Below are positions 4,444-36,335 of a DNA stretch of 64,000 bases, piece after piece. The translations under genes and the position numbers were made by a program. A model generated the notes under the pieces. It had not been told where the DNA came from and did not search any database. It was given only the letters and a program-made list of their open reading frames with translations. The first letter of the stretch is position 1; each line of letters starts with the position of its first letter. The stretch lies in the NCBI RefSeq assembly GCF_025506355.1, contig NZ_JANZYP010000048.1, positions 1-64,000 on the forward strand. Direction: 5' to 3'. Source of the DNA: Sphaerisporangium corydalis. GTDB lineage: Bacteria > Actinomycetota > Actinomycetes > Streptosporangiales > Streptosporangiaceae.

Positions 4444-5547
4444 TCACTCGCGGGCGGTGGATGTGGTGGTCATGTCTGGGTAGCGGGGGCCGGAGACCTT
4501 TGCCGCTAGGGGTTCCAGGGCGGTGAGGTCGTTGTCGGACAGGGTCAGGGTCGCGGCTGCGAGGTTTTGCCGGAGGCGGGTGGGGGAGCGGGTGCCGGGG
4601 ATGGGGATGACGGTCAGGTTGTGGACGCGGGAACGATGGTGAAGCCAGGCGAGTGCGACCTGTGCGGGGGTGAGGTCGCGGCGTGCGGCGATGTCGTGGA
4701 CGGGGTCGAGGAGGGCGGCGTTCGCGTCCGCGTGGGCGCCGGTGAACCGTGGCATTGTCAGCCGGATGTCGTCCGTGCTAAGGCGCTGGGCACCGGTGGG
4801 CTGTGGCATCGGCGGCCCGGCGTCGCTCGTGCTCAACCGTGGCAGCGCCGTCCCGGGGTCGTCCGTGTTCGGGCGCTGGGCGCCGGCGAGCGTTCCGGTG
4901 AGGAGGCCTCGGCCGAGGGGGGCGTAGGCGATGAGGGCCACGCCGAGTTGTGCTGCCGCTGGGATCACGGAGGTTTCGACGTCGCGGGTGAACAGCGACC
5001 ATTCGGATTGCAGGGCCGCGATCGGGTGCACGCTGTGGGCCGCGTGCAGTTCGGGGGCGGTGACCTCGGAGAGGCCGAGGTGGCGTACCTTGCCTTCCTG
5101 TACCAACTCGGCCATGGCGCCGACCGTCTCCTCGATGGGGACGGATGTGTCGCGGCGGTGCGCGTAGTAGAGGTCGATCTCGTCGACGCCGAGGCGCTTC
5201 AAGCTCGCTTCGGCGCTCTGGCGTATGTAGGCGCGGTCGCCGCGGACCTGGCTCCAGGACTTCTCGCCCGCTCGCCGGACGATGCCGAACTTGGTGGCGA
5301 TGAGGACCCGGTCGCGGTGGGCGCGGACGAAGGGGCCGAGGAACCTCTCGTTGTCGCCGTCTCCGTACAGATCTGCGGTGTCGAACATGGTGACCCCCAG
5401 GGCGAGGGCGGTCCGCAGGGTTTCCCGGGCCTGGGCCGGTGCCGTCGGTCCGTAGAACTCGCTGAAGCCCATGCAGCCGAGGCCCTGGGCGCCGACCCAA
5501 GGGCCGCCGGTGCCGAGGGGAACTGCCGGGAGGATCGAAGCAGACAT
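4444..5547 (-). CDS. Aldo/keto reductase (AKR13-like) with expanded internal loop
   Basis: The 367-residue protein has the AKR tetrad in order: Asp and Tyr in FDTADLYGDG, Lys in LIATKFG and His in LYYAHRRD. The NADPH-site sequence VIPIPGTRSP is near the C-terminus. The start at 5547 follows AAAGGAG at good spacing; the open frame further upstream translates a duplicated piece of the neighbouring regulator. The loop after GRGLLTG is about 35 residues longer than normal because a PR(L/F)-containing segment is repeated in tandem (DNA 4743-4893). It is transcribed in the same direction as the ArpA-like regulator upstream. It could reduce the keto group of a butenolide precursor or a pathway aldehyde, but it may be unrelated to the cluster. 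Confidence 0.85.
   Translation of the reverse strand: MSASILPAVPLGTGGPWVGAQGLGCMGFSEFYGPTAPAQARETLRTALALGVTMFDTADLYGDGDNERFLGPFVRAHRDRVLIATKFGIVRRAGEKSWSQVRGDRAYIRQSAEASLKRLGVDEIDLYYAHRRDTSVPIEETVGAMAELVQEGKVRHLGLSEVTAPELHAAHSVHPIAALQSEWSLFTRDVETSVIPAAAQLGVALIAYAPLGRGLLTGTLAGAQRPNTDDPGTALPRLSTSDAGPPMPQPTGAQRLSTDDIRLTMPRFTGAHADANAALLDPVHDIAARRDLTPAQVALAWLHHRSRVHNLTVIPIPGTRSPTRLRQNLAAATLTLSDNDLTALEPLAAKVSGPRYPDMTTTSTARE
4743..4893 (-). repeat. Imperfect in-frame tandem repeats inside the aldo/keto reductase gene
   Basis: Units sharing GTGGCA and TCGTCCGTG-GGCGCTGGGC cores recur at 54- and 36-nt offsets. They encode repeated (S/N)TxDxxxxxPR segments in the loop that is short in other AKR13 proteins. 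The reading frame is kept throughout. Confidence 0.55.
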
Positions 5548-5583
5548 GCGAAGGTCTCCTTTGATGGCCTGCTCCCGGCGGCT

Positions 5584-5715
5584 GGGCCACTGCGGGGAGG
5601 CGACGATGGAAGAGGAGAGCAGGCGGCTCATCTCCTCTTTGGCCGACTCCCAGCGAATGGGCTACTGGGGGGAGGCGACGATGGAGGAGAAGAGGAGGCG
5701 GCTCATTTCCTTCCA
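5584..5715 (-). repeat. 75-nt tandem duplication of the TetR gene's 3' end
   Basis: Two copies (about 5584-5640 and 5659-5715) are offset by exactly 75 nt. The upstream copy encodes the genuine end of the TetR protein, MSRLLFSSIVASPQ followed by TAG. The downstream copy encodes MSRLLSSSIVASPQ, but its TAG has become TGG. The second copy therefore forms the leader in front of the aldo/keto reductase and is in frame with it. Confidence 0.75.
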
Positions 5716-6312
5716 GCGGCGGGGGAGGTCGGCGCGCTGGTCGAGGACGTCGCAGACGTGTTGCAGGCCGAAGAAGGCCGATACGAGGATGTACGCGGCG
5801 GCCTCGGGGTCCATGCCCTCGCGGAGCTGGCCGGCGCCGCTCGCCTTGGCCAGCAGCGTCGAGAGTGTGGAGATCCACTCGACGTAGGGCTCGGGCAGGG
5901 TCGTGTCGGACAGCGAACGCTCGGCCTGGATCCTGGCGCCGGCCTTGACGATGTCGTCCTCGAAGAACTTATCGGCGGCGTTGGTCAGCAGGGCCTGGAC
6001 GGTCTCCAGCGGCGGCAGGCCCATGGCCTGCGCCTCGTCGATGCGGACGCGCCACCGGTTGTACAGCTCGCGCACGATCTCGGCGGCGATGTCCTTTTTG
6101 TCGCGAAAGTGGAAATACACCGCGCCCTTGGTCATGCCGACCTGCTGGGCGATGTGGTCGATGGAGGTGTGCGGATATCCCCGGTCGGCGAACAGCTCGG
6201 CCGCCGAGGCGAGTACCTGGGCCCGGGTCTGCGCGGCCCGTGCCTGCTGCGGCGCGTTGCGTGGCTGCCCGCGCTGCGTGAGGGGGGTTCTGGGAGTGCC
6301 GTTCTTACTCAC
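5662..6312 (-). CDS. ArpA/ScbR-like gamma-butyrolactone receptor (TetR family)
   Basis: The 216-residue protein has an N-terminal helix-turn-helix with the hallmark SIDHIAQQVGMTKGAVYFHF, followed by DKKDIAAEI. The ligand domain carries RIQAERSLSD and PYVEWI; the Trp in that last motif lines the hormone pocket in CprB/ArpA-type receptors. The start is GTG at 6312, with only a weak ribosome site. It is divergent from the AfsA-like synthase, and two matching palindromes lie between them. Its probable role is repressor of the cluster, binding these palindromes until a butenolide-type signal is made. The palindrome at 6343-6366 lies about 30 nt upstream of its own start, which suggests autorepression. 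Confidence 0.9.
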   Translation of the reverse strand: MSKNGTPRTPLTQRGQPRNAPQQARAAQTRAQVLASAAELFADRGYPHTSIDHIAQQVGMTKGAVYFHFRDKKDIAAEIVRELYNRWRVRIDEAQAMGLPPLETVQALLTNAADKFFEDDIVKAGARIQAERSLSDTTLPEPYVEWISTLSTLLAKASGAGQLREGMDPEAAAYILVSAFFGLQHVCDVLDQRADLPRRWKEMSRLLFSSIVASPQ

Positions 6313-6342
6313 GACCGTGTCCGTTCTGTGTGATCCCCAGTC

Positions 6343-6366
6343 AGCATACCGCCATCCAGGTATGTT
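6343..6366. promoter_or_regulatory. ARE-like operator 1 (receptor promoter)
   Basis: The core is CATACC-(8 nt)-GGTATG, with further flanking symmetry. It resembles the autoregulatory elements bound by ArpA-family receptors. It lies 31 nt upstream of the receptor's GTG start. Confidence 0.75.
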
Positions 6367-6425
6367 TCGCCTCTGTTCAGAGGTCCCCGTGCCAGCTCAA
6401 CAGTAAACCGTCCGAGACACTCCAA

Positions 6426-35892: not shown

Positions 35893-35950
35893 CAGGCTCC
35901 TCTCAGATTCCTCTGAAAGCTCGGGATCCGTGGGGGTGGTCGGGGAGTGC

Positions 35951-36010
35951 GACTTCCGGCAGGCGGTCCGGGCGGCCGACGACTTCCGGCAGGCGGTCCG
36001 GGCGACCGAC
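35951..36010. repeat. 30-nt tandem repeat in the leader of the minus arm
   Basis: The unit GACTTCCGGCAGGCGGTCCGGGCG plus (G/A)CCGAC occurs twice, head to tail. It lies between the operon's first start codon and operator 6, so it would be in the 5' untranslated leader. Confidence 0.65.
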
Positions 36011-36047
36011 ACGGGTGTCCTGCGCCATCGGCGGCTTCCGTCACTAT

Positions 36048-36071
36048 CGCATACCTTCACGGAGGTATGTA
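36048..36071. promoter_or_regulatory. ARE-like operator 6 (minus-arm promoter)
   Basis: The core is CATACC-(8 nt)-GGTATG with a GTA flank. It is 156 nt upstream of the first gene of the ten-gene minus arm, placing that whole operon under the same receptor as the signalling genes 30 kb away. Confidence 0.75.
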
Positions 36072-36311
36072 ACTTTGCCGAGGCCCGCCCCCGCCATCGC
36101 CGGGCGGCCTGCGCCGACCCTCCCGGCGCCGGTCTCCCCGCGCCACGGCATGGCCGCCGTTCACCTCATTGGCGGCATGAACTGGCCGAACACCGGGCTA
36201 CGGCTCCGGATCGACCCAGGGCGGCACTGCGGCGGGCATCCGGCGACCCGGTCACCGTGCGACTGCGGACATCCCCACTTGCACAGCGGGAGCCACGTCT
36301 CGCCTTGGCGA

Positions 36312-36335
36312 AAAAAACCTGTCAGGTGGTATGTT
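36312..36335. promoter_or_regulatory. ARE-like operator 7 (no clear target gene)
   Basis: AAAAAACC-(8 nt)-GGTATGTT keeps a perfect right arm and the 8-nt spacing; the left arm shares only the ACC end. No convincing gene starts next to it. The 240 nt between this site and operator 6 contain no gene I can support. Confidence 0.6.

Follow-up and report, generated by a model that had tools for sequence, protein, structure and literature searches.

We describe a cluster of about 26 genes in the soil actinomycete Sphaerisporangium corydalis that brings together the probable synthesis of 3-amino-4-hydroxybenzoate (3,4-AHBA), a carboxylic acid reductase (CAR) and an altered oxygenase complex of the Paa (phenylacetate) type. 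The cluster runs from position 4444 to ~36335 of the window, by which we mean the whole stretch of 64,000 nucleotides that was analysed (contig NZ_JANZYP010000048.1, positions 1 to 64,000, from a genome of 9.48 Mb across 162 contigs). On balance we lean towards reading it as one mobile, butyrolactone-switched cluster that builds a product from 3,4-AHBA via Paa-type oxygenation. An earlier note on the window had proposed one cluster joining these functions, and that proposal stands up well: nine other genomes keep nearly the whole unit, its two arms share palindromic boxes, and profile scans found every gene that the note had named in its place.

To our knowledge, Paa-type oxygenases have been recognised mainly in catabolism, tropones and antimycins. 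A conserved, transferable cluster in which a complex of this type is coupled to a CAR and to the synthesis of 3,4-AHBA points to an unexplored product class, and mining rules keyed to polyketide synthases (PKS) or nonribosomal peptide synthetases (NRPS) may overlook a cluster of this kind.

Conservation and mobility of the cluster

Genome contigs scanned with the PaaA-like protein, the catalytic subunit of the oxygenase, yielded 12 loci at 61-96% identity (gene names as in Table 1). The 3,4-AHBA synthase homologue GriH (82-94% identity) is also present in eight of the 12 genomes, and all eight keep both arms of the cluster, the plus arm with the 3,4-AHBA genes and the minus arm with the Paa-type genes. 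The two arms share one contig in seven of these eight and lie on two contigs in Streptomyces fuscichromogenes. A ninth relative, already annotated, sits on a 330-kb linear plasmid of Streptomyces sp. Mut1 (NZ_CP120998.1). There are ten clusters in total, window included, the nine others coming from two Microbispora, Paractinoplanes ferrugineus and six Streptomyces, and their neighbouring genes differ.

The GriI/GriH pair is kept in all nine relatives with both arms, and the aldo/keto reductase AKR in seven of the nine and in S. novaecaesareae, with none in the S.PB5 stretch. The transporter MFSa is limited to the window and the Microbispora copies. The P. ferrugineus locus is without AKR, P450b, MFSb and CoAL, its nearest CoAL (59%) lying on another contig, and in the Streptomyces copies the regulatory block has diverged (TetR1 38-39%, AfsA 34-35%). 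The four remaining loci of the 12 are in S. novaecaesareae, Streptomyces sp. Ru73, Saccharopolyspora hirsuta and Planotetraspora. In S. novaecaesareae, the HTH gene (cut), CAR, AKR and the minus arm are on one small contig and GMC (79%) starts another; its GriH probably fell into an assembly gap.

Close copies are found in 3 of 341 family genomes, where the other 48 matches (E up to 1e-48) are 35-39% identical, in 3 of 392 Streptomyces genomes (E up to 1e-70) and in 2 of 394 class genomes (E up to 1e-62), the three sets overlapping; in PLSDB, one of 200 matching plasmid records exceeds 60% identity. That the cluster is rare, occurs in several families and is carried on a plasmid argues for lateral transfer, and it is apparently mobile. 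Estimates of dN/dS by the NG86 method, which are rough at this G+C, fall below 1 for 24 of 24 genes against M. triticiradicis (highest PaaD 0.73, with PaaBC at 0.59 among the higher values) and for 23 of 23 against S. hyaluromycini (highest AfsA 0.92). Over 45 genome pairs, GriH distances correlate at r 0.95-0.98 with those of HTH, CAR, GriI, aspartokinase, P450a, GMC, ALDH and FMO, at 0.93 with KS1, 0.86 with KS2 and 0.84 with TetR2; the value for P450b (0.58) is spoilt by a P. ferrugineus paralogue.

Two further features of the relatives were noted. In Planotetraspora sp. A-T 1434 (L031, ~8437-14574) there is a collinear remnant with fragments of AKR, AfsA, P450a, GMC, ALDH, FMO, PaaBC, PaaA and KS1 (65-100% identity); TetR1, KS2 and a zinc alcohol dehydrogenase (89%) are almost complete there, and the remnant may be a decaying cluster or a misassembly. 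Relatives carry this zinc alcohol dehydrogenase gene between ALDH and FMO: it was identified in M. amethystogenes, in Mut1 and in the Planotetraspora remnant, and six more have a like-sized open reading frame (ORF). The window lacks the gene, with only ~70 bp at this place (23773-23845).

Palindromes shared by both arms

The strongest evidence for a common purpose of both arms is a set of palindromic boxes. They were first found by aligning the gap between TetR1 and AfsA in four copies, and were then described by the pattern CATACC-N8-GGTATG with at most two mismatches. The window holds seven matches where 0.70 are expected, a number reached in none of 100 shuffles, and all seven lie inside the cluster at operon starts of both arms. 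Each of 11 clusters (the ten and S. novaecaesareae) has a box upstream of KS2, and all ten that hold TetR1 and AfsA have one between these two genes; the CAR/HTH site carries one in 10 of 11 (the exception being S. fuscichromogenes) and the TetR2/HAD site in 7 of 10 (exceptions P. ferrugineus, S. fuscichromogenes and Mut1). A few stray matches occur in relatives, one each by GriI (S.PB5), outside the cluster (AC555) and beside AKR (S. novaecaesareae).

As a control, each stretch was resampled 30 times under a Markov model, with 0.03-0.83 matches expected. In 3 of 14 stretches the largest resample held at least as many matches as were observed, namely the S. fuscichromogenes plus arm (1 vs 2), the 40-kb AC555 stretch (3 vs 3) and the S. 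hyaluromycini minus stretch (2 vs 2); in M. triticiradicis six boxes were observed against five in the largest resample.

We take the boxes to resemble the autoregulatory element (ARE) sites of the ScbR/ArpA family. The cluster encodes homologues of AfsA and of its receptor and carries boxes of the receptor type where its operons start, the hallmarks by which we recognise a butyrolactone-regulated cluster, and we read the AfsA/TetR/acyl-CoA dehydrogenase/HAD block as butyrolactone signalling. A HAD gene also lies directly after ScbA on an S. goshikiensis plasmid. Because AfsA and a ScbR-like TetR are encoded and boxes lie at both arms, both arms look like one regulon, in which the receptors would bind the boxes. 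The Mut1 counterpart of the ParB-N/HTH protein, the presumed pathway regulator, is annotated as having a ParB N-terminal domain. The shared palindromes would offer a handle for activating the cluster in a laboratory host by removal of a receptor gene. In S. canus V4I20 (G351:C1, L080), KS2 is present in three tandem copies, with palindromes upstream of each.

An altered Paa-type oxygenase complex

By sequence, PaaA, the PaaB-PaaC fusion and PaaD form a distinct subfamily. E. coli PaaA (3pvr) is matched by the PaaA-like protein at 4.9e-47, and identity to ordinary PaaA is 35-40%. All four components score below their equivalog cut-offs (bits/cut-off: PaaA 216/280, PaaB 32.5/85.45, PaaC 40.6/133.35, PaaD 78.8/108.15), and PaaB and PaaC, separate in the genome's own paa operon, are fused in the cluster.

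A further difference lies at the presumed metal site. The presumed diiron ligands of E. coli PaaA are E42, E72, H75, D126, E155 and H158, and these agree with the 3pvr alignment once the numbering is shifted by two. Ordinary PaaA has E,E,H,D,E,H at these positions in 39 of 39 loci (38 distinct, L041 and L110 being the same place). In the cluster type, Asn replaces the Asp in 13 of 13 aligned members, down to 61% identity, and five of the six presumed ligands are kept; the Planotetraspora fragment ends short of this column and is outside the 13. 'Epoxidase' is accordingly best treated as a presumptive label for this protein. The Asp-to-Asn change probes how far a diiron scaffold can be retuned.

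The earlier note had stated that PKS/NRPS, PaaE and phosphopantetheinyl transferase (PPTase) genes are missing from the cluster, and that partner genes must lie elsewhere. Both statements are borne out: none of these was recognised among the scanned cluster proteins or in the annotated Mut1 copy, and the genome has, elsewhere, an ordinary paa operon on contig C119 with a PaaE-type reductase (L116:7542-8654) and four matches to the phosphopantetheinyl transferase family PF01648.

A different biosynthetic-looking locus with PaaA, B, C and D was seen on the 88-kb linear plasmid NZ_CP107949.1 of Streptomyces sp. NBC_00388 (L132). It also holds a 2Fe-2S protein (probably PaaE), an anthranilate synthase, a DAHP synthase and two AMP-ligase-type genes, and its PaaA keeps the usual Asp.

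Precursor supply and acyl-CoA enzymes

The presence of GriI/GriH-like genes with an aspartokinase makes 3,4-AHBA the likely product of the pair. GriI matches NF041223 (BagB_FevI) at 3.2e-88 and GriH matches NF041224 (BagC_FevH) at 5.4e-108, yet both fall below the cut-offs; as they pass the general and not the BagB/BagC models, the assignment is one at family level only. The CAR is a single chain with A, PCP and reductase domains and passes its equivalog cut-off.

On the minus arm, the ketoacyl synthase KS1 keeps Cys-His-Asn in five copies shown, the short-chain dehydrogenase/reductase (SDR) Ser-Tyr-Lys in six, and the hydratase ECH both crotonase Glu residues in five, which we take to be the catalytic residues of these enzymes. 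KS1, SDR and ECH together are a usual set for a two-carbon extension; no acyl carrier protein (ACP) was recognised in the cluster. KS2 keeps the Cys and Asp of its DpsC-like relatives, and Arg replaces the DpsC His in 11 of 11 cluster copies. Five homologues outside the clusters likewise have Arg for His (5/5), one of them with Ser for Cys.

The solved structure to which CoAL is closest is that of a 4-hydroxybutyrate-CoA ligase, with ACSM enzymes also near, and the two CoAL relatives (57-60%) whose surroundings were examined adjoin valine-catabolism or ilvBNC-type genes. Since the nearest ligases and the contexts of the relatives involve short or branched acids, homology indicates no aromatic substrate for CoAL. 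The contexts of KS2 relatives on plasmids and of CoAL relatives fixed no substrate. Of the exporters listed in the earlier note, two major facilitator superfamily (MFS) proteins are indeed present, but MFSb belongs to a symporter family and is shikimate-transporter-like, and it may or may not be an exporter.

Proposed pathway and competing readings

In the pathway that we propose, a butyrolactone-type signal made by AfsA, the acyl-CoA dehydrogenase and the HAD phosphatase, and received by TetR1 and TetR2, would switch the cluster, probably together with the ParB-like activator. Aspartokinase, GriI and GriH would lead to 3,4-AHBA, and CAR, primed by a PPTase from elsewhere in the genome (the PF01648 proteins being candidates), would reduce an aromatic or chain-extended acid to the aldehyde. 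CoAL would make an acyl-CoA, KS1 would add two carbons and SDR and ECH would process the extension. The PaaA/PaaBC/PaaD complex would then insert oxygen into the CoA-bound ring, with electrons probably from the ordinary PaaE on C119. KS2 may act as an acyltransferase or as a partner of KS1, and the P450s, GMC, ALDH and FMO would finish the product before export. The expected catalytic residues in KS1, SDR and ECH support this scheme, as do the candidate PaaE and PPTase genes outside the cluster. The 3,4-AHBA-derived ring is the leading candidate for the CoA-bound ring that is oxygenated, though taken by itself it is a close call, slightly on the doubtful side. A sharper version can be offered only tentatively: an Asn-altered, B-C-fused Paa-type diiron oxygenase might dearomatise CoA-bound 3,4-AHBA, or a C2-extended form of it, in concert with free-standing KASIII (ketoacyl-ACP synthase III), SDR and hydratase enzymes working at the CoA level in place of PKS/NRPS, giving a new metabolite class.

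Several observations weigh against this proposal. GriI and GriH stay below the narrow BagB/BagC cut-offs while passing the general aldolase and DHQ-synthase-II family models; with Asn in place of a presumed iron ligand, it is uncertain that PaaA is active as an epoxidase; CoAL resembles short-chain acid ligases and is missing from the P. ferrugineus locus. CoAL (36 pairs), ECH, SDR, PaaD, PaaBC and PaaA follow GriH at only r 0.39-0.63, a low correlation from which we conclude that the Paa block was probably exchanged partly on its own. Finally, a Paa module with KS1 and CoAL exists without GriH and CAR, in diverged form (40-75%), in Streptomyces sp. Ru73, and a reduced form exists in Saccharopolyspora hirsuta. 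The Ru73 locus (L112/L113, G349:C6:1-22865) has CoAL 59%, KS1 70%, PaaA 75%, PaaBC 40%, PaaD 43%, SDR 72% and ECH 65%, next to genes for LysR, an aminotransferase, a FAD-type protein, a KS2-like protein (43%), a 2-oxoglutarate-Fe (2OG-Fe) oxygenase, a YdcZ-type exporter and ThyX-like proteins; by its content it looks biosynthetic. In S. hirsuta, PaaA (61%), PaaBC (31%), PaaD (45%) and SDR (56%) lie near a DegT aminotransferase and an epimerase. The box pattern has no match in either locus.

These points lend substance to a reading in which there are two building blocks: the plus arm would make and modify 3,4-AHBA, the minus arm would turn an acid of primary metabolism into an oxygenated acyl-CoA of its own, and KS2 would join that acyl group to the 3,4-AHBA-derived amine or hydroxyl. 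The existence of the minus-arm core without griI/griH is why we treat this as a genuine, if rather improbable, contender. The short or branched acid contexts of CoAL relatives and the partly independent history of the CoAL-to-PaaA block agree with it, and so does KS2 itself, whose nearest solved relatives include CerJ and ChlB3, which are acyl-transferring enzymes, and which has a homologue at the Ru73 locus. Set against it are the Arg in place of the usual His throughout the KS2 clade, the want of a dedicated second aromatic acid source in the cluster, and the joint occurrence of both arms, linked by boxes, in all ten clusters where GriH was found. The earlier note had gone further and had 3,4-AHBA-CoA or a relative as the epoxidised substrate. 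With the Paa module occurring without GriH in Ru73 and with CoAL's likeness to short-chain acid ligases, 3,4-AHBA-CoA is possible and not required; the altered PaaA ligand adds to this, and the substrate claim is not established.

Under either view of the substrate, the PaaA-like protein might be something other than a ring epoxidase, carrying out N-oxygenation, acyl-chain hydroxylation or no oxygenation at all. The consistent Asn in its clade against the Asp of every ordinary PaaA locus, the low identity to ordinary PaaA and the missed PaaA-D cut-offs all lean that way; the invariance of the other five presumed ligands, the retention of PaaB, PaaC and PaaD partners and the purifying selection on PaaA, PaaBC and PaaD (though PaaD and PaaBC are among the higher values against M. 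triticiradicis) lean the other way, and we regard this possibility as unlikely. Far less probable still is that a 3,4-AHBA cluster merely lies beside an unrelated, catabolic Paa-like operon. The arms are mostly on opposite strands, an ordinary paa operon is present elsewhere in the genome and the minus-arm core stands alone in two genomes, but the same unit recurs in ten clusters with differing flanks, palindromes are common to both arms, and the DpsC-like KASIII relatives examined are in biosynthetic or unclear contexts; the Ru73 locus, too, looks biosynthetic. We set this reading aside on synteny and shared boxes. The earlier note had named a minus arm conserved alone as a catabolic locus in relatives lacking griI/griH as a finding that would count against its own proposal; a diverged form of the core does occur without griI/griH at 2 of the 12 loci, and a catabolic context was not found at them.

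Comparison with known systems

In antimycin biosynthesis, the Paa-type complex AntHIJKL acts on anthraniloyl-AntG (PMC3869250), which gives a precedent for complexes of this type working on aminobenzoyl thioesters. Both systems combine an acyl-CoA ligase with a Paa-type multicomponent oxygenase that would act later, in antimycin biosynthesis on an aminobenzoate bound as a thioester and here possibly on one (AntF, AntG, AntHIJKL; PMC3869250, PMC7170507). The antimycin system, however, holds anthranilate on a carrier protein and uses a five-gene oxygenase with NRPS/PKS, whereas the present cluster has 3,4-AHBA genes, a CAR, KASIIIs and a PaaBC fusion, and neither PaaE nor an ACP was seen in it.

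Manumycin-type clusters (asukamycin, colabomycin; carpatamide ctd) likewise combine 3,4-AHBA genes with a pair of KASIII genes, and ring oxidation to an epoxy-hydroxycyclohexenone is proposed for them (PMC11595529). They differ in PKS-type chains, an arylamine N-acyltransferase and three oxidoreductases (PMC11595529), and a word search of the accessible part of that paper found no mention of a Paa-type complex or epoxidase. No domain for PKS-type chain assembly or arylamine N-acyltransferase was found among the scanned cluster proteins or in the annotated Mut1 copy, which places the cluster outside the manumycin type. Grixazone and bagremycin/ferroverdin clusters share the GriI/GriH pair, and in grixazone the acid is also reduced, GriC/GriD converting 3,4-AHBA to the aldehyde (PMC10179220); unlike grixazone, the cluster has a single-chain CAR and an added Paa module, and no phenoxazinone-forming oxidase was recognised among the scanned proteins. 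With the phenylacetate catabolon PaaABCDE and the tropone route it shares the PaaA, PaaB, PaaC and PaaD families and an aerobic CoA-thioester logic (PMC9493321, PMC8283759), and it differs in the PaaB-PaaC fusion, the Asn at a presumed ligand, a two-Glu hydratase and the distance of its PaaA; no PaaE, PaaG or PaaZ was recognised in the cluster.

The claim of the earlier note that no known pathway has this set agrees with our search, in which the open-access literature gave no description of it; subscription work may hold one. The species paper on Mut1 reports 24 predicted clusters, and no mention of this one was found in its accessible part (PMC11475409). The cluster would thus be of 3,4-AHBA type with a recruited, altered Paa-type oxygenase, for which our open-access search found no description. 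The ahbamycin and crexazone clusters that the search returned are other 3,4-AHBA clusters; the GriH of PMC11446937 is a griselimycin enzyme that shares only the name.

Gene content, borders and other loci

Genes were identified by listing ORFs, by calling genes from codon position and by scanning window proteins against Pfam and NCBIfam (Table 1). The plus arm runs, left to right, AKR, TetR1, AfsA, acyl-CoA dehydrogenase, TetR2, HAD phosphatase, CAR, ParB-N/HTH, GriI, GriH, aspartokinase, P450a, MFSa, GMC, ALDH and FMO, although AKR, TetR1, TetR2 and CAR, grouped with it, are on the minus strand. The minus-strand operon reads KS2, KS1, PaaA, PaaBC, PaaD, SDR, ECH, CoAL, MFSb and P450b.

Table 1. 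Genes and palindromic boxes of the cluster, with positions in the window
Feature	Position	Strand	Evidence and remarks
AKR, aldo/keto reductase; left border of conserved unit	4444..5631	-	PF00248 5.5e-73
TetR1, presumed butyrolactone receptor	5662..6312	-	TetR_N; Mut1 counterpart (38% identical) annotated ScbR family
Two ARE-like boxes in the TetR1/AfsA gap	6345-6364, 6426-6449	.	pattern search
AfsA/ScbA-type butyrolactone synthase	6515..7564	+	PF03756 2.7e-38
Acyl-CoA dehydrogenase-like, presumed signalling block	7561..8661	+	PF08028; 45-88% in 9/9 both-arm relatives
TetR2 regulator	8662..9327	-	TetR_N; start 9327 or 9249
ARE-like box, TetR2/HAD divergent starts	9279..9298	.	within TetR2 if start 9327
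HAD phosphatase, probably signalling block	9342..10004	+	PF12710; likely start near 9342
CAR, carboxylic acid reductase	10054..13515	-	NF041592 1592 bits, cut-off 1300; likely start near 13515
Two ARE-like boxes, CAR/ParB-like divergent region	13620-13639, 13690-13709	.	pattern search
ParB-N/HTH protein, presumed pathway regulator	13698..14768	+	HTH matches; true start probably 13713-13773
GriI-like aldolase	14802..15638	+	DeoC family; PRK07226.1 above cut-off
GriH-like 3,4-AHBA synthase	15690..16802	+	PF01959 4.3e-98
Aspartokinase (aspartate semialdehyde supply)	16833..18191	+	PF00696
P450a	18277..19515	+	PF00067; likely start 18277
MFSa transporter	19479..20720	+	PF07690
GMC oxidoreductase	20739..22277	+	PF00732/PF05199
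ALDH, aldehyde dehydrogenase	22274..23773	+	PF00171 2.3e-153
FMO, flavin monooxygenase	23845..25149	+	TIGR04046-like, below cut-off
P450b	25235..26464	-	PF00067
MFSb, metabolite/H+ symporter family	26526..27869	-	TIGR00883, PRK09952; likely start near 27869
CoAL, acyl-CoA ligase	27980..29683	-	PF00501/PF13193; likely start 29683
ECH, enoyl-CoA hydratase	29689..30495	-	PF00378; likely start 30495
SDR, FabG-like	30486..31226	-	profile matches, residues; likely start 31226
PaaD-like Fe-S assembly/zinc-ribbon protein	31223..31729	-	TIGR02159 4.8e-22, below cut-off; PF01883, PF23451
PaaB-PaaC fusion	31726..32916	-	PF06243 + PF05138 in one frame; start 32916 or 32913
PaaA-like catalytic subunit	32913..33800	-	TIGR02156 5.7e-64, below cut-off; Asn at residue 121
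KS1, FabH/PqsD-like KASIII	33854..34846	-	PRK09352 315.6 bits, cut-off 249; likely start 34846
KS2, DpsC/CerJ/ChlB3-like KASIII	34846..35892	-	nearest solved relatives; likely start 35892
Two ARE-like boxes upstream of KS2-to-P450b operon	36050-36069, 36314-36333	.	pattern search

The conserved core spans 4444-36060. Four flanking genes (2046-3029, 36614-37681, 37787-38395, 38501-39685) have no counterpart in the stretches that were examined in relatives, so that borders at 4444 and ~36335, as the earlier note had drawn them, fit. A defence-gene scan of two flanking ORFs gave nothing. The gene directly right of the cluster (36614-37681), outside the conserved unit, encodes a manganese catalase.

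The same genome has a second, separate GriI/GriH-like locus on contig C123 (L117:2136-18978), whose GriH is 39% identical. This locus also holds an arylamine N-acetyltransferase, three ATP-grasp proteins, an amidase, a P450, a LysE-type exporter and a BTAD regulator.

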